In this document: in pieces, positions 10,070 through 54,437 of the stretch
How the letters are laid out: each line of letters opens with the position of its first letter
Position numbering within the stretch: position 1 is the stretch's first letter
Source: Marinifilum flexuosum
Lineage (GTDB): Bacteria > Bacteroidota > Bacteroidia > Bacteroidales > Marinifilaceae
DNA length: 64,000 nucleotides
NCBI RefSeq assembly: GCF_003610555.1
Contig: NZ_RAPQ01000010.1
Span: forward strand, 124,001 to 188,000
Direction: 5' to 3'
Program-made: the position numbers and the translations under genes
The notes under the pieces: model-generated
The model's database searches: none
Told to the model about the DNA's origin: nothing
Seen by the model: only the letters and a program-made list of their open reading frames with translations

Positions 10070-10110
10070 AAATATCGCAGGTAAATATTTTTTAACTTTT
10101 GTAAGTTACG

Positions 10111-28700: not shown

Positions 28701-28712
28701 GGGTAAAAAGTT

Positions 28713-28886
28713 AAACCACGAAGGACACGAAGGTGTTTCACAAAGAACGCAATTGACACTGGCAGCTCCTGTGAATTAATAATTCACAGGTTTTGAGTTT
28801 GGGATTTTTAATCCTTACAAATCGAATTTAAAATTCTTGACTCCATGAGCCCTGATTACAAATCAGGACTAGCGGGGTCATACTTT
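28713..28886. repeat. Repeat-derived spacer with two hairpins
   Basis: Begins with an ACCACGAAGGACACGAAGG-type copy of the element seen at 27541. CCTGTGAATT-AAT-AATTCACAGG (28768-28790 region) is a perfect 10-bp hairpin and may end the EamA transcript. Near 28850, CCTGATT-ACA-AATCAGG forms a second hairpin followed by CTAGCGGGG. No gene. Confidence 0.5.
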
Positions 28887-29036
28887 CTATGCTCCAATAT
28901 TTCCCTTTGCTTTATAGAAATAGTCATAATTCATTAGCATTAATCCAAGAAATTTGTAAACAACTAAATCGAAGATAACTAGTCCGTTAGTGATTAAAAT
29001 ATTCTTGATTGAAAAAACTCTTTTCAATTTATCCAT
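28887..29036 (-). CDS. Small putative membrane protein, 49 residues
   Basis: ATG at 29036 gives MDKLKRVFSIKNILI and one hydrophobic segment (about 15-37, including LVIFDLVVYKFLGLML), then a short polar tail. The start overlaps the end of the upstream gene by 8 bases (ATGGATAA), an arrangement that supports translational coupling and a real gene. I do not recognise a family. Low G+C like the neighbouring accessory genes. Confidence 0.45.
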   Translation of the reverse strand: MDKLKRVFSIKNILITNGLVIFDLVVYKFLGLMLMNYDYFYKAKGNIGA

Positions 29037-29388
29037 CCCAAACAGAATATTCAGTAACTGTGTTGTAATTATCAAATTTGATTGTTAATCGCCCTGTATT
29101 TATTCCTCGTTTTGAATATCCCAAATAATACCCAAATTCGATATTTGTTTTAGATTCAGGTTCGCCTAATAATTCTATGATTTGAGTTTTTGTCATTCCC
29201 TTTAGTTCGTAATCATTTCTCAAACTATTCATCATATCCCAACGGAGAGACCATTCAGTTTCTGATTCTGTCCAGTTTTTCCATTTTTCAGAATCAAATC
29301 GTTTGTGAGTGATATTTCCTCTAATTACAAATCCTATTAGAATTAATACTCCAACTCCTAAAATCCCATATTTAAAAATCTTGCTCAA
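29029..29388 (-). CDS. Hypothetical membrane-anchored protein with BamE-like C-terminal region
   Basis: 119 residues: one N-terminal membrane helix (about 6-24) and a soluble domain. MTKTQIIELLGEPES followed by a YYLGYS strand and RLTIKFDNYNTVTEYSV resembles the BamE/SmpA-type fold in which a short helix with LGxP precedes beta strands. That resemblance is by eye only. It is followed by and overlaps a small membrane-protein ORF. Lies just beyond the palindromic boundary of the nuclease cassette. Confidence 0.6.
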   Translation of the reverse strand: MSKIFKYGILGVGVLILIGFVIRGNITHKRFDSEKWKNWTESETEWSLRWDMMNSLRNDYELKGMTKTQIIELLGEPESKTNIEFGYYLGYSKRGINTGRLTIKFDNYNTVTEYSVWDG

Positions 29389-29401
29389 TGTTATTTTTTT
29401 A

Positions 29402-29533
29402 TGCCCTACAACGGATGGCGCTATGTAACGTAGGCGCCTTAGTTGATTTATGTTTCAATTTTTATAAAAAGCACAAAACCTTCGAAAACCCGAGACCCGC
29501 CTATGTTATATGATCGCTTGTTACCTGCTGGGC
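29402..29533. repeat. 132-bp imperfect palindrome at the left edge of the nuclease cassette
   Basis: The left arm (GCCCTACAACGG... CTATGTAACGTAGGCG) and right arm (CGCCTATGTTATATG... TTACCTGCTGGGC) can pair, with the best run (T)ATGTAACGTAGGCG against CGCCTATGTTATAT. The right end, GTTACCTGCTGGGC (29520-29533), is matched in inverse at 31217-31230. Confidence 0.6.
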
Positions 29534-29534
29534 T

Positions 29535-30614
29535 TTATTCATTTTCTTGCCCTTGTCTAATTTGGTCTAGCCATTCTCTATCAATATTTATTATCGAAAA
29601 AGGCATTTCAGCATTATTTCTTTGATTAAATACAAATATTTTAGAAAAAAACTCTTGCTTAATATCTAAAGCAACGGCTTTGTCGAGATTGAACTTATTC
29701 CAGTGATTGAAAATTCTCTTAGGTACGAAAAAATCAAAATCAGTCCGTTGTGTATTATTTCTTGAATTAAACACAGTAAGTCTCCAGACATTTGGTCTGG
29801 TCGAAAACCAATGAATTTCTGCTTTTAGTGGGGAGAAATCACCCAAATCACTTAGAATATTATTTTGTGTAGAATTGCTTTTGAATAAAAAAACCATATC
29901 TCCTGTTTCAAGCAATCCAACATATGAATATCGAATTGCTGTATCAGCGGAAGTAACGATAGCTCCAATAATATTGCCCGAATTTAAAAAGAGATGAGCT
30001 CTATGATATTTTTCATCTTGAAGTCTCCCTGTTCTATCCTTAAAGAAATCATAAATGTTTTTTATATCATCTTCAATAAAACTATCAATCAGGGCTTGGT
30101 CTATATCATTAAAATGCCTAATTGTATTTGGTCCTAAAAACCAACTCAATGAAAGAAGTGGTATTTTATTATTTGTAGCAAATTCTATTGCTGGTTTACT
30201 AAACTCGTTGATGGTAGCAACACCAACTTGAAATAAATACCTATTCCTTATTTCTATTGCGTAATCGGCTCTTCGATTATTCTGTCTACCTAACAAACTA
30301 TCTTCTGTAACAATTTCAAAATCATTAATGTCATTTCTTAATCCCAGAGCATTTCTTACAATAGGTAATCCAACAGTTGCTCCATATGCTTTACATTCAA
30401 ATATTAATTGAGTTGGATAAGAAAAGGGCATTTGAATTGGAGGGTTCATTATTATATCTGCATCATGTGCAGCACCTTTCCCATTAATATAGAAAAGTCC
30501 ACCACGTTCAAATGAATACACATCATCAGCAATGACATTTGAAAACCCACAGTTTTTAAGGAGATTTCTTATTATATATTCTAGTAATGCTCCTTTTAAG
30601 TTTGATGCTTTCAT
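29535..30614 (-). CDS. Putative PD-(D/E)XK restriction-like endonuclease
   Basis: 359 residues. The N-terminal third has the layout of a PD-(D/E)XK nuclease core: helix with E12 (ALLEYIIRNLL), D51/D53 (AAHDADIIM) and E73-C-K75 (IFECKAYGATVG) followed by a helix (VRNALGLRND). A second region about 105-150 (NRRADYAIEIRN) and a C-terminal domain of about 200 residues are unassigned. The active-site pattern suggests DNA cleavage; the target is unknown. It follows a two-TM protein by 6 bp as a two-gene unit, a layout seen in defence cassettes. AT-rich with no methylase nearby, so it is not an ordinary type II restriction pair. Confidence 0.65.
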   Translation of the reverse strand: MKASNLKGALLEYIIRNLLKNCGFSNVIADDVYSFERGGLFYINGKGAAHDADIIMNPPIQMPFSYPTQLIFECKAYGATVGLPIVRNALGLRNDINDFEIVTEDSLLGRQNNRRADYAIEIRNRYLFQVGVATINEFSKPAIEFATNNKIPLLSLSWFLGPNTIRHFNDIDQALIDSFIEDDIKNIYDFFKDRTGRLQDEKYHRAHLFLNSGNIIGAIVTSADTAIRYSYVGLLETGDMVFLFKSNSTQNNILSDLGDFSPLKAEIHWFSTRPNVWRLTVFNSRNNTQRTDFDFFVPKRIFNHWNKFNLDKAVALDIKQEFFSKIFVFNQRNNAEMPFSIINIDREWLDQIRQGQENE

Positions 30615-30620
30615 CTTTTT

Positions 30621-31196
30621 TTATTTGATTAATCCCTTGTCTGCAAGTTCTTTCCTCGCTTCCGCCGTTAAGATAATACTCATAATATTTACGTTCTTGG
30701 AGTCATTATAACCAAGTTCTTTTCTTAATTCTTTGATAAAATTGTCTCCGTCTTTGAACAAATTAAATTTTTCTTGCTTCCCTTCACTTTCAACAAGTTT
30801 AGAGTCAAAATCAATGTATTTCTTTATTAGTCTGTCGCTGCCCCAATTCATAAGACCTTTTTTGAATAGAAGCATTTCTTCTTCGGCTTTGCGTGAAAGT
30901 CCATTTTGCCCTTTTTTGACTTTGAAAAGCATTTCAAAATATGAATTGTAAAAATGTTCAAACACTTTTTGTTTCTCTTTCAAAATATGCAATTCATATT
31001 CTCTCTCTCTTGCTTTCTTATTATTTATACTCACTGTCAAAACTGACGTAAATGCAGCCACAATAATTGCTACAATTCCAAGAATTGAAATCTTAGATTG
31101 TAAATCGTCTACGAAGAATATTCCCCAGAATAAAAATCCGAGAAGAAGAAGGAACAGGAATATCATCCAAACTCTAGAAAGTGTATCTTTTATCAT
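30621..31196 (-). CDS. Two-TM protein with cytoplasmic helical domain, partner of the nuclease
   Basis: 191 residues. Two hydrophobic helices at about 9-29 and 37-57 are followed by a charged helical stretch (KKAREREYELHILKEKQKVFEHFY) that may form a coiled coil, and an all-alpha tail. I do not recognise a family; length and layout recall small membrane effectors or sensors next to defence enzymes, but no diagnostic motif is seen. First gene of the two-gene unit, 6 bp before the nuclease. A 12-bp inverted repeat lies upstream at 31280-31318. Confidence 0.6.
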   Translation of the reverse strand: MIKDTLSRVWMIFLFLLLLGFLFWGIFFVDDLQSKISILGIVAIIVAAFTSVLTVSINNKKAREREYELHILKEKQKVFEHFYNSYFEMLFKVKKGQNGLSRKAEEEMLLFKKGLMNWGSDRLIKKYIDFDSKLVESEGKQEKFNLFKDGDNFIKELRKELGYNDSKNVNIMSIILTAEARKELADKGLIK

Positions 31197-31216
31197 TGTG
31201 TCTTGTTTTATATTTA

Positions 31217-31230
31217 GCCTTGCAGGTAAC
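31217..31230. repeat. Inverted copy of the cassette-end sequence
   Basis: GCCTTGCAGGTAAC is the inverse of GTTACCTGCTGGGC at 29520-29533 with 12 of 14 matches. The two flank the nuclease/two-TM genes closely, 1 bp after one stop and 20 bp before the other start. Confidence 0.5.
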
Positions 31231-31279
31231 TATTTATTTGTGCACTTGTACGCTCACTTTTAATATCTCAGAGTAAAAA

Positions 31280-31318
31280 GGTACACAATACATACCCCAT
31301 AGGTCAGTATTGTGCACC
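31280..31318. promoter_or_regulatory. 12-bp inverted repeat upstream of the nuclease cassette
   Basis: GGTACACAATAC (31280-31291) and GTATTGTGCACC (31307-31318) pair at 11 of 12 positions around a 15-nt centre. It lies 84 bp before the two-TM start and could be an operator or a hairpin. Confidence 0.4.
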
Positions 31319-31521
31319 TATTAGTTAATCGCAAACCCAAATCTACAAAATTATAATCAACAAAACCACCCAACTTAAATTCACTTTTTAATTCAATCTA
31401 GTTGAACCACTCAAAACCTCCGAATTCACAGAAAAAACAAAAATACCACACCTTAAAGTCTGAATTATTTTTAATAGCCAAACCAACAAAAATGGAATGG
31501 AGTAATAATGCCGTGGAAAAT

Positions 31522-31832
31522 GGCTGTAGAAATTCCTAAGGCACGTTCTTTCAGTTTGAATGAAGCTTTTGAACTTAAAAAGCTACGATCTTTGACTTAA
31601 AAAAGGCCTTTTTAATCTGTTAGGCAGGTTTTCAATCGAAGAAAATGGGTTTTTAAATTAAAAAGGAGCGTTTTTAGTTTTAGAAAGGTAGTTTTCAATT
31701 TAAAATCACCTTTCCAACTCATTTAAAACACCTTTTCAAATTCAAAAAGCACGTTCATTTTTAAAAAAAATGGCTTTTCACCTTCAAAAGGCCTCTTTTA
31801 TTTTAAAAAACGCTCCTAAAAATTTCCCAATT
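31522..31832. repeat. Degenerate array, ~21-bp units paired into a 42-bp period
   Basis: Short G/C-rich words (GGCACG, GCT, GGCC, GGG, GGAGCG, GGT, CACC, CACC, GCACG, GGC, GGCC, CGCTCC) alternate with T-rich then A-rich stretches ending AAAA. Their starts are at 31522, 31540, 31565, 31582, 31605, 31623, 31647, 31665, 31687, 31707, 31729, 31749, 31772, 31790 and 31811. From 31540 the steps alternate long and short (25,17,23,18,24,18,22,20,22,20,23,18) and each pair sums to 41 or 42. The units are not identical, unlike CRISPR or satellite repeats. Confidence 0.65.
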
Positions 31833-31919
31833 GGCATTACCAATTCAATATTATCATATTTTATCTTCGAAAGCTGCATTCTCATTCGAAGAATGGGTCT
31901 AAAAAATTTTTTAGGGAGC
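31812..31919. repeat. Palindrome ending the array
   Basis: GCTCCTAAAAATTT (31812-31825) pairs with AAATTTTTTAGGGAGC (31904-31919) allowing small bulges. Inside, CTTCGAA and TTCGAAG near 31865-31891 form a second stem. The last G/C word of the array is part of the outer arm. Confidence 0.55.
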
Positions 31920-32220
31920 TTCTTTTCGTCAATTCCCCCACAACAAATCCTTCAGCCCAACAAAACATCGAATGTAACTTAATTTTTAATCACAAATCCA
32001 TCCTTCATCAAGCATTTATCACCTAAAAAAGGTATGACCAATATTTGAAAAGAAATCAAATACCAAAGCTTAATTTCATGCAATTATTTTTTATTGTTTG
32101 ATTAATCTTTTTTAAATTAGATTCTGTTATTCCCAATCGGATACTCAGTCAAACTAATCAAACACACAGCTTTCGAGTATTGTCAGGGGAAATTTATTTC
32201 TAATAAAAATTACTAGTCAA

Positions 32221-32973
32221 ATGGAAAAAGTAAGAGTCCATTATTCATGCGATAGCGCGGAGGTTAGTAATACCACCAGCGCAATTCGATCCAAATTTGC
32301 CGAAGAAGATTGGTCGGCAGATTTAATTCTCAGTAAAATTCTTGCAGATATTGCAGTGGAGCATCCAATTCTTGAACAGGCAATTGAAGCAGTTCACGGG
32401 AACACTTTAAAAGCCAATGTGAGAGCCGAGGATGAGAAGGCGGGGAAAGATTACATCTGCTTGAAGAATTTTATAAAAGCAAACCTTTCTGTTCCCGAAG
32501 CGAACATTAGAGAGGCAGCAGTAGAGGCCTGGAAGCTTCTGGTAAGTCATAATCCAAAGCTTGATCAGCAAAATTATGCCCGTCAGATTGAACTGAGCAA
32601 CTCATTTATCACCAACCTTAAAAGTCCAACTTTTAAGCCTTTAATTGACTTGCTAATTGGTGTACCTGAAAGAGTGGAAAAATTTACTGCATCCACAGCT
32701 TCGCTGGAGGCAGCCTATAAGAAGATGGCTACCACTAAATCGGAAAAGATGGATTTGCCTGCTCCTTCGACACAAAAGAACAAGATTCGCAGCATCATTA
32801 ACAACAGGTTAATGACCTATTTGGAAGGCGCTGTTGATGCACTTCCTGAAAAATATGAGGCTACTTATAAAGCCATCTGCGAAAGCATCGAAATTAATAA
32901 CGAAAAAGCCCGCGCTCGCCAAACCTTAAAAGAAAGTCAAAAGGAAAAAGAGCCGGAAGAAGATATTGCATAG
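32221..32973 (+). CDS. DUF6261-family protein
   Basis: 250 residues, cytoplasmic, mostly alpha-helical by composition, no signal or membrane segment. It starts MEKVRVHYSCDSAEVSNTTS and contains KAGKDYICLKNFIKANL and KNKIRSIINNRLMTYLEGAV; the C-terminal ~25 residues are highly charged (KESQKEKEPEEDIA). I recognise the overall look of DUF6261 proteins of Bacteroidota; no function is known to me. It is preceded by a kilobase of non-coding DNA with the phased array and followed by a good terminator, so it is transcribed alone. G+C is higher than in the DNA upstream. Confidence 0.65.
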   Translation: MEKVRVHYSCDSAEVSNTTSAIRSKFAEEDWSADLILSKILADIAVEHPILEQAIEAVHGNTLKANVRAEDEKAGKDYICLKNFIKANLSVPEANIREAAVEAWKLLVSHNPKLDQQNYARQIELSNSFITNLKSPTFKPLIDLLIGVPERVEKFTASTASLEAAYKKMATTKSEKMDLPAPSTQKNKIRSIINNRLMTYLEGAVDALPEKYEATYKAICESIEINNEKARARQTLKESQKEKEPEEDIA

Positions 32974-33006
32974 GTTTTAGGTTTGTATTATTTATTGTCA
33001 TGAGAA

Positions 33007-33030
33007 GCAGCCCTTTGGGGTTGCTTTTTT
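33007..33030 (+). terminator. Intrinsic terminator of the DUF6261 gene
   Basis: GCAGCCC and GGGTTGC (one G-U) form a 7-bp stem with loop TTTG followed by T7, 34 bp after the stop codon. Confidence 0.85.
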
Positions 33031-33042
33031 TATGCAGACTTA

Positions 33043-33151
33043 CCTCACCCCAACCCTCTCCTCAAGGAGCTGGCAGCTGCTGAATTCTTGACATATGATC
33101 TGTTTGTTGTTTTCCTTCTTCTCTAGAGCTTGTCCCGACAGGGGGATGAGG
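33043..33151. repeat. Dispersed ~110-bp palindromic repeat, copy 1
   Basis: Starts CCTCACCCCAACCCTCTCC and ends GTCCCGACAGGGGGATGAGG, so the ends are inverse of one another. The middle carries TGCTGAATTCTTGACATATG. This copy has small deletions and substitutions relative to copy 2. Confidence 0.85.
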
Positions 33152-33208
33152 GGAAATACATTTGATATTGAATTTCAAAATCACCTCACTCCTTCTCTTG
33201 AAATAACT

Positions 33209-33324
33209 CCTCACCCCAACCCTCTCCTCAAGGAGAGGGAGCTGGCTGCTGCTGAATTCTTGGCATATGGTCTATTGATTGTTTTCCTTCTCCTCGAGGA
33301 GAAGGTCCCGACAGGGGGATGAGG
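33209..33324. repeat. Dispersed ~110-bp palindromic repeat, copy 2
   Basis: Most complete copy: CCTCACCCCAACCCTCTCC, AAGGAGAGGGAGCTGGC, TGCTGAATTCTTGGCATATG, TTCCTTCTCCTCGAGGAG, then GTCCCGACAGGGGGATGAGG. It ends a few bases before the stop codon of the minus-strand membrane gene at 33331. Confidence 0.88.
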
Positions 33325-33330
33325 GGAAAA

Positions 33331-54360: not shown

Positions 54361-54410
54361 GTTCACTTTTAGTTTAAGACCTGCAGTCAACCTATTTTCA
54401 GGTAATGACT

Positions 54411-54437
54411 CCTTTATCCTTTATCCTTTATCCTTTA
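54411..54437. repeat. Heptanucleotide tandem repeat (CCTTTAT)4
   Basis: CCTTTAT at 54411, 54418 and 54425 plus a six-base partial copy, 2 bp beyond the ABC-F stop codon (54440). Confidence 0.9.

Follow-up and report, generated by a model that had tools for sequence, protein, structure and literature searches.

Ahead of a DUF6261 gene of Marinifilum flexuosum lies noncoding DNA whose short words drift from one repeat to the next and whose spacing stays close to whole turns of the double helix. The question raised by this locus is what holds the spacing and whether the gene that follows has any part in it. We addressed it in a 64,000-nucleotide stretch of the genome (contig NZ_RAPQ01000010.1, positions 124,001 to 188,000), here called the window, to which positions given without a locus name refer, and in loci of related genomes. 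A preliminary description, made from the letters alone, had suggested selection on DNA shape or on an ordered protein array.

Results

The phased array of the window occupies positions 31505 to 31940 of the forward strand (ends approximate) and is delimited by autocorrelation, unit fitting and gap-poor alignment with copies elsewhere. It consists of about ten degenerate 41.6-bp units made of 20.8-bp half-units, equivalent to four and two turns of B-DNA, in which an AT-centered box (TTTTGAATTCAAAA-like) alternates with a G/C-bearing box (CATTGCCANTCGANNAATG-like). Between 31510 and 31830, base identity peaks at lags 42, 83, and 125, where it reaches 0.52 to 0.54 (z of 7.5 to 7.8, 1000 dinucleotide shuffles), and from these peaks the base period of ~41.6 bp and half-period of 20.8 bp follow. 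The autocorrelation of G/C positions at the same lags was matched by 0 of 1000 shuffles, and this segment is the top-scoring 320-bp place of the whole window for lags 21 and 42 taken together. With periodicity far above that of shuffled DNA, the phased array first noticed by eye is confirmed.

Some details of that first view needed revision. It had placed 14 or 15 words between 31522 and 32220, in steps whose pairs sum to 41 to 42 bp. A 42-position unit profile, fitted iteratively to seven array copies, returned spacings of 42, 41, 42, 41, 42, 42, 41, 42, and 42 bp in the window, which bears out that pair sum, and 40 to 42 bp over the seven copies. The number of half-units is closer to 20 by alignment with other copies, and the segment from 31940 to 32220 is not array. 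The unit profile correlates at 0.83 with its own reverse complement, giving each unit two symmetry centers ~21 bp apart. The palindrome of ~110 bp said to close the array is loosely present at 31805 to 31924 (arms 31805 to 31825 and 31904 to 31924, 71% complementary), but it is one of many such centers, spaced every ~21 bp, and a by-product of units that are themselves palindromic rather than a special closure. At the left end, 31507 to 31535 on the forward strand bears an inverted resemblance to the right end in copies, seen by eye in alignments and in self reverse-complement matches of two copies.

What kind of repeat is this? The units are contiguous and ~52% alike at lag 42, as opposed to the near-identical repeats and unique spacers of a CRISPR array, and the 20.8/41.6-bp period recurs upstream of one gene family, as described below. 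We consider it very improbable that the array is a coding remnant with seven-residue repeats or an ordinary satellite. Twenty-one base pairs do equal seven codons, and one copy carries a 92-codon open frame, but all six frames of all seven copies contain stops and substitutions show no codon-position bias, on which grounds the coding remnant was rejected. A satellite would not set the period found upstream of a single gene family, nor would it account for a base period common to 27 of 39 degenerate noncoding arrays.

Palindromic units also raise the prospect that the array acts as RNA, transcribed as a long leader or separately into a highly paired molecule that DUF6261 or a nuclease recognizes. 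On either strand the window array outdoes its shuffles in folding (z of -4.4 and -4.2), as do a copy near rplS (-7.4) and three other arrays (-4.6 to -7.8, two folded as RNA and one as DNA), and RNAalifold draws one long hairpin in which 23 of 87 pairs are changed on both sides. Yet good folding of both strands is what palindromic units lead one to expect, and any array built of them folds well. The unit profile is clearly palindromic (correlation of 0.57 or more) in 11 of 15 arrays, and compensatory change within units shows no excess over shuffles in these 15 (280 against 307 +/- 31). In the family of the window array, hairpin covariation is weak, with 25 double-change cells against 18.8 in shuffled alignments and 20 of 500 shuffles as high. 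Compensatory change that we had seen by eye in single units was not upheld over the 15 arrays. Since 20.8-bp spacing has no obvious reason in RNA, and no Rfam match exceeded its gathering score (five loci, six matches up to an E value of 1), a role as RNA seems improbable.

The gene itself, at 32221 to 32973 on the forward strand, encodes 250 amino acids and matches Pfam PF19775 with 31.8 bits against a cut-off of 27, bearing out its earlier assignment to DUF6261; it also follows the upstream-array rule set out below. A hairpin and T-run resembling an intrinsic terminator, found by eye, comes directly after it (33007 to 33031, forward strand), so that the gene looks monocistronic; the next gene lies on the opposite strand and has no Pfam match. 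Array and gene sit in a strain-variable island, delimited by a synteny break at 28703 to 33330. The corresponding interval measures 342 bp in Marinifilum D714 and 53 bp in N1E240, and the 4.3-kb island holding the array-gene unit is absent from both. The same island encodes an Mrr-like nuclease (29535 to 30614; 20.9 bits, the Pfam cut-off being 21) and a protein with a weak PADLOC match to 'Effector 1TM' (30621 to 31196), and it could be a small defense-type island. Dispersed repeats, with several copies in relatives, lie at 33197 to 33324 (CCTCACCCC...) and ~31209 to 31331.

Association of phased arrays with DUF6261 genes

We searched fetched loci with our own DUF6261 profile, which gave 52 nonredundant genes from 12 genomes with six genus codes in one family, and called an array where the 1.2 kb upstream of the gene gave a z of at least 6 at multiples of 20.8 bp. 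Each of 18 members that were aligned matches the family with an E value of 0.01 or better; a few of the counted genes were caught by our own profile only, such as L268 at 20.5 bits. An array lay upstream of 41 of the 52 genes, 29 of them at z of at least 8, or 40 of 51 (28 at z of at least 8) once L358, whose upstream signal is a run of N, is removed; pseudogene fragments L355 and L373 were retained as misses. Downstream of the genes, an array was found at 1 of 50. A second set drew on 20 previously unused loci, of which L381 (83 amino acids) and L398 (491 bp of upstream sequence) were dropped. Arrays lay upstream of 16 of the remaining 18 genes and downstream of none, although this set is not fully independent of the first, as at least 6 of its 18 genes are orthologous to genes there.

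By comparison, arrays were called at 7 of 97 other genes preceded by 400 bp or more of DNA free of ORFs, one of these seven (L308) being the array of an adjacent DUF6261 gene. In an unmatched control of 400 randomly chosen genes, 10 had one in the 1 kb before them. Over both sets, 56 of 69 DUF6261 genes have an upstream array; the other 13 comprise six weak cases (z of 4.5 to 5.5), the two pseudogene fragments and five genes with no signal. The preliminary description had asked for a search upstream of other DUF6261 genes and would have been troubled by loci with the gene and no array; apart from those 13, the outcome favors it. The gene had at one stage looked like a coincidental neighbor, given three other copies of the window array that lack it, an idea overturned by the family-wide upstream test. 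That DUF6261 adjoins the array is not accidental.

The 56 arrays have a median length of 325 bp and end a median of 206 bp before the start codon. In the intervening sequence, TANNTTTG occurs in 7 of 56 cases, no more than in shuffled sequence (0.18), and no informative promoter motif was found there. A terminator-like hairpin with T-run follows several of 15 DUF6261 genes inspected. Across genomes, the Pfam profile counts 12, 12, 11, 12, and 9 DUF6261 genes in G000, G002, G003, G015, and G025, all of which have phased arrays in sampled stretches, and 1, 3, and 2 in G009, G012, and G023, where 100 to 200 kb held no phased array. G001, G004, and G011 have six genes each and G020 has three. In G042 the profile finds nothing, yet a 21-bp array (L227) is present.

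Array words follow protein relatedness

To compare words with proteins, we used 43 linked arrays, taken at z of at least 4.9. Array sequence is common to 7 of 7 gene pairs with at least 80% protein identity and to 9 of 13 at 60 to 80%, always in the same direction. Sharing then falls to 4 of 18 pairs at 50 to 60%, 5 of 12 at 40 to 50%, 4 of 88 at 30 to 40% (never in the same direction), 2 of 637 at 20 to 30%, and 0 of 128 below 20%. Protein identity and array sharing are correlated (Mantel r of 0.69, reached by 0 of 2000 permutations, n = 43, with pairs that are not independent), and the correlation spans different genus codes, as in L346, L349, and L378. Words mostly differ, then, unless the proteins are close relatives, and the comparison across arrays upholds the earlier statement that they keep their spacing and not their words.

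Much of this correlation could come from joint inheritance alone; what it shows is that array and gene stay together. Between L333 and L335, conservation is limited to the array, gene, and terminator (-590 to +833), and from these alignments movement of the array-gene unit as a cassette is possible; for L365 and L380, and for L360 and L390, the flank is conserved too. Linked arrays also probably differ in unit number between species, as overlapping matches between L362 and L384 are shifted by ~82 and ~164 bp.

For every gap, arrays show 18 substitutions, the hydE flank of one array copy 11.6, and other noncoding DNA 7.9, so that gaps are 1.6 to 2.3 times rarer inside arrays than outside; the pairs compared are not independent, and one control still includes the first ~110 bp of the L010 array through an exclusion range that was too short. 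A first estimate with MAFFT counted 2679 substitutions and 53 gaps over 21 pairs, and BLAST-like scores brought the figure down to 18 per gap. We regard this as modest evidence for selection on spacing.

DNA shape is another possible cause of fixed spacing. In the window array the A/T tracts keep a phase of 10.42 bp, equalled by 1 of 1000 shuffles, which makes bending plausible there, and a cis-acting site of bent DNA or an HU/IHF-like nucleoid protein, regulating a DUF6261 gene whose product does not bind, would agree with this phasing and with the upstream position in 56 of 69 cases. Over 37 DUF6261-linked arrays, however, the phasing is weak (mean resultant 0.62 against 0.53 in shuffles, above the array's own null mean in 25 of 37), and a generic shape site explains neither words that follow the DUF6261 subfamily nor gene-free copies. 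We judge such a site unlikely. The bending proposed at the outset is plausible for the window array, where the phasing is strong, and is not general. Selection on shape or on an ordered protein array, as first suggested, may be at work, with a modest depletion of gaps in its favor. That interpretation as a whole is partly supported.

Gene-free copies of the window array

BLAST found three further copies of the window array in the same 5.17-Mb genome, 62 to 85% alike and all without the gene. One copy (84% identical) follows an MFS-type gene, another separates a hydE-like radical-SAM gene from a large sensor-kinase-like gene, and the third precedes rplS; the neighbors were named from their translations. 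The four copies, each ~400 bp and at unrelated loci, align over nearly their whole length with few gaps. The preliminary description foresaw neither these copies nor the many phased arrays of unrelated sequence that this genome contains.

The array at the hydE locus (L010, 4294 to 4736) is present in D714, M. breve, and N1E240. D737 retains a short stub of it, and BLAST detected none in M. fragile, M. caeruleilacunae, or the MAG McD1.5. In M. breve (L111, 5435 to 5880) the flank is 93% identical to that of the window strain and the array only 74%, and the array is slightly nearer to the window and C5 arrays (75 to 76%). Because flank and array differ so much in identity, the array seems to have been replaced between loci. 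At rplS, the flank-to-flank interval is 387 to 599 bp shorter in 10 of 10 relatives that match both flanks on one contig; the locus was read in G001 and G002, and both lack the array, with other DNA in G002 as judged by eye. Farther afield, a model of the array (R1) gave only four weak matches of 25 to 27 bits outside the window's genome among 393 genomes of the order. The window array DNA has no match in phages and none in Escherichia coli (megablast only), and that of the L003 array has none in plasmids.

Copies at unrelated loci could also stem from a repeat-propagating pair of the REPIN-RAYT kind, in which DUF6261 or a nearby Y1 transposase would copy the arrays, the linked array being the parent and gene-free arrays the daughters, and copying itself would set the spacing. 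Near-full-length copies of ~400 bp at four loci of one genome, the shorter rplS interval in all ten relatives, the apparent replacement in M. breve, and a Y1 transposase gene beside DUF6261 in G020 all speak for it. But no transposase family is matched by any of 18 DUF6261 proteins, the copies number only four and are far from identical, and no target-site duplication can be read by eye at the empty sites. Of the marks of a MITE, the array ends do bear a resemblance to inverted repeats. Y1_Tnp genes are found in genomes rich in arrays and in genomes poor in them, and among 14 Y1_Tnp flanks a 21/41-bp array was present in two and a lag of 104 in another; the Y1 transposase was accordingly set aside as a cause, for it does not discriminate. 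Copying of this kind we deem unlikely. At the G020 locus with the Y1 transposase beside DUF6261 (L330, 584 to 1159 and 1160 to 1425), a second periodic stretch (lags 105, 65, and 20) lies near the transposase start.

A wider class of phased arrays

A survey of noncoding DNA for degenerate repeats at lags 10 to 150, in sampled stretches of ten genomes, returned 39 hits, a number that counts L253, L238, and L295 twice each and excludes L308:18813 (z above 40). The base period is 20.2 to 21.6 bp or a multiple of it in 27, all of them among the 37 hits from genomes with Marinifilum and Labilibaculum genus codes; G009 gave two hits with other periods in 200 kb. No array was found in 100 kb each of G012, G023, and G008, in one 20-kb stretch of N1E240, or in 49 kb of E. 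coli, and one shuffle per segment gave no hits in the subset of scanned sets so treated. Other Bacteroidales loci (497 kb) yielded eight hits, of which L175 (41 bp) and L138 (63 and 84 bp) fit the period. Without any threshold, bulk noncoding autocorrelation in the two best-sampled genomes is highest at lag 21 and next at 41/42, with a modest z of 3 to 4. Words differ from array to array, and the period stays near two or four turns of B-DNA, non-integer on average.

The genome of the window holds 11 phased arrays in 464 kb sampled, which extrapolates to roughly a hundred. Some gene-free arrays have linked relatives. The array of L365, whose DUF6261 protein is 47% identical to that of the window, resembles gene-free L265 of the same genome at 64%, and in D714 the L384 array has a gene-free relative, L296, at 87%. 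For six sampled gene-free arrays of G000 (L256, L271, L266, L255, L254, and L259), no matching linked array was found. The genes on either side of a gene-free array are mostly codirectional or convergent, and of seven neighbors other than DUF6261, scanned at five loci, six match ordinary Pfam domains (one under its cut-off) and one matches none. Two gene-free arrays from two genera, L267:7145 and L238:10850, are 60% alike over 219 bp, and no linked array with their words was found.

Other periodicities were seen alongside. A smaller set of arrays has a 23-bp base period (L302:5542, L304:16545, L262:16007, and window position 10080), and three hits lie near 71.5 bp (two in L273, one in L283). 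Intergenic simple repeats of 7 or 14 bp, such as GCAGTTA, occur at L109 ~190 to 330, L166:36 to 240, and window 54410 to 54437, and are similar in kind to TAACTGA repeats described in an excerpted report (PMC4679880).

Discussion

The recurring unit is an array of 200 to 600 bp, whose dyad-symmetric sites, centered two helical turns apart, face the same side of the DNA, followed by a DUF6261 gene and often by a terminator of its own. We favor, at a probability of roughly 0.56, the reading that each DUF6261 protein forms an assembly on the phased array ahead of its gene and on the dispersed copies, array and gene being one genetic unit. The small protein, predicted to be all helical, would bind its array cooperatively, dimer beside dimer, and the resulting ordered nucleoprotein patch may control the protein's own gene and mark or organize the dispersed copies. 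Helical spacing would be kept because neighboring proteins must touch, and words would drift along with the protein, giving rise to up to about a dozen separate protein-array pairs per genome. Assembly on one DNA face would fit the two-turn pitch, the dyad-symmetric units of many arrays, the upstream position, the correlation of words with proteins, and the daughters in the same genome; binding, autoregulation, and any chromosomal role are inferred. Several results weigh against this reading, namely compensatory change within units that does not exceed shuffles, a depletion of gaps that is only modest, 13 of 69 genes that lack a clear array, six gene-free arrays of G000 with no linked counterpart, and the 21-bp array of G042, where the DUF6261 profile had no hit.

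In favor of the reading, many DUF6261 members have a basic C-terminal tail (KARARKTR-like). A single-sequence structure model was poor (pLDDT of 49) and unfit for a fold search, and a profile search of the PDB gave E values of 0.004 and worse, with apparently unrelated fragments and no solved homologue. Among mobile elements, two DUF6261 queries found no relative in viral contigs, the DUF6261 protein of L333, from one subfamily, had no match among 72,556 plasmid records, and phages gave one weak match (26% identity over 64%).

The general layout, a protein with its own repeat array, is already known. In type II partition, as an excerpt on ParR/parC relates, each repeat is bound by one dimer, the dimers build up a helix, and the promoter is repressed by the resulting complex (PMC5016525). 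Like ParR/parC and TubR/tubC, DUF6261 is a small-protein gene with an upstream array of repeats, which its product may likewise bind. Unlike type II and III partition systems, DUF6261 is chromosomal, a genome can hold as many as about a dozen of its diverged paralogs along with gene-free array copies, its gene in the window looks monocistronic, and the profile libraries scanned link the protein to no known family. In the window, no motor gene of the parMRC or tubZRC kind (ParM or TubZ) is seen.

REPIN-RAYT systems offer a second comparison, with one gene per repeat family, adjacent repeats, dispersed copies, and gene-repeat coevolution according to part of one account (PMC3116915), and DUF6261 likewise has arrays beside the gene and dispersed gene-free copies. 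The differences are that profiles place DUF6261 outside the Y1/HUH transposases (18 proteins gave no Y1_Tnp match), that each array has about ten 41.6-bp units and not one hairpin, that the window genome has four diverged copies rather than many near-identical ones, and that spacing, not sequence, is common to the array families. BIMEs, or alternating REP arrays, are in the excerpt available of their description intergenic, regularly spaced palindromes in alternating orientation (PMC2817692). DUF6261 arrays are also intergenic with regularly spaced palindromes, but they have no common core word, each having its own, and a period near two helical turns. The helical periodicity of A/T tracts that partial text on prokaryotic curvature signals describes (PMC3940949) differs again from discrete arrays tied to one gene family, in which strong phasing marks the window array and only weak phasing the set as a whole.

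A broader proposal is that DUF6261 proteins are a new class of array-assembling proteins, with up to about a dozen mutually distinct pairs per genome that have nothing but the two-turn pitch of 20.8 bp as a shared code, and that about a hundred arrays per genome form a chromosome-wide, self-diversifying network of nucleoprotein patches. We offer this tentatively, as somewhat short of an even chance. No description of the array-DUF6261 pair, or of similar arrays in Bacteroidetes, was found in the limited literature collection searched, where the name DUF6261 turns up in one paper.

With the array as its partner, DUF6261, a wholly uncharacterized family, gains a first testable role. Conservation of pitch without words escapes ordinary similarity searches. 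If the protein does assemble on its array, several natural orthogonal protein-DNA array pairs would exist in one genome and, if true, the effect of fixed helical spacing on a bacterial chromosome could be probed directly, be it gene control, nucleoid organization, or the spread of a selfish repeat.
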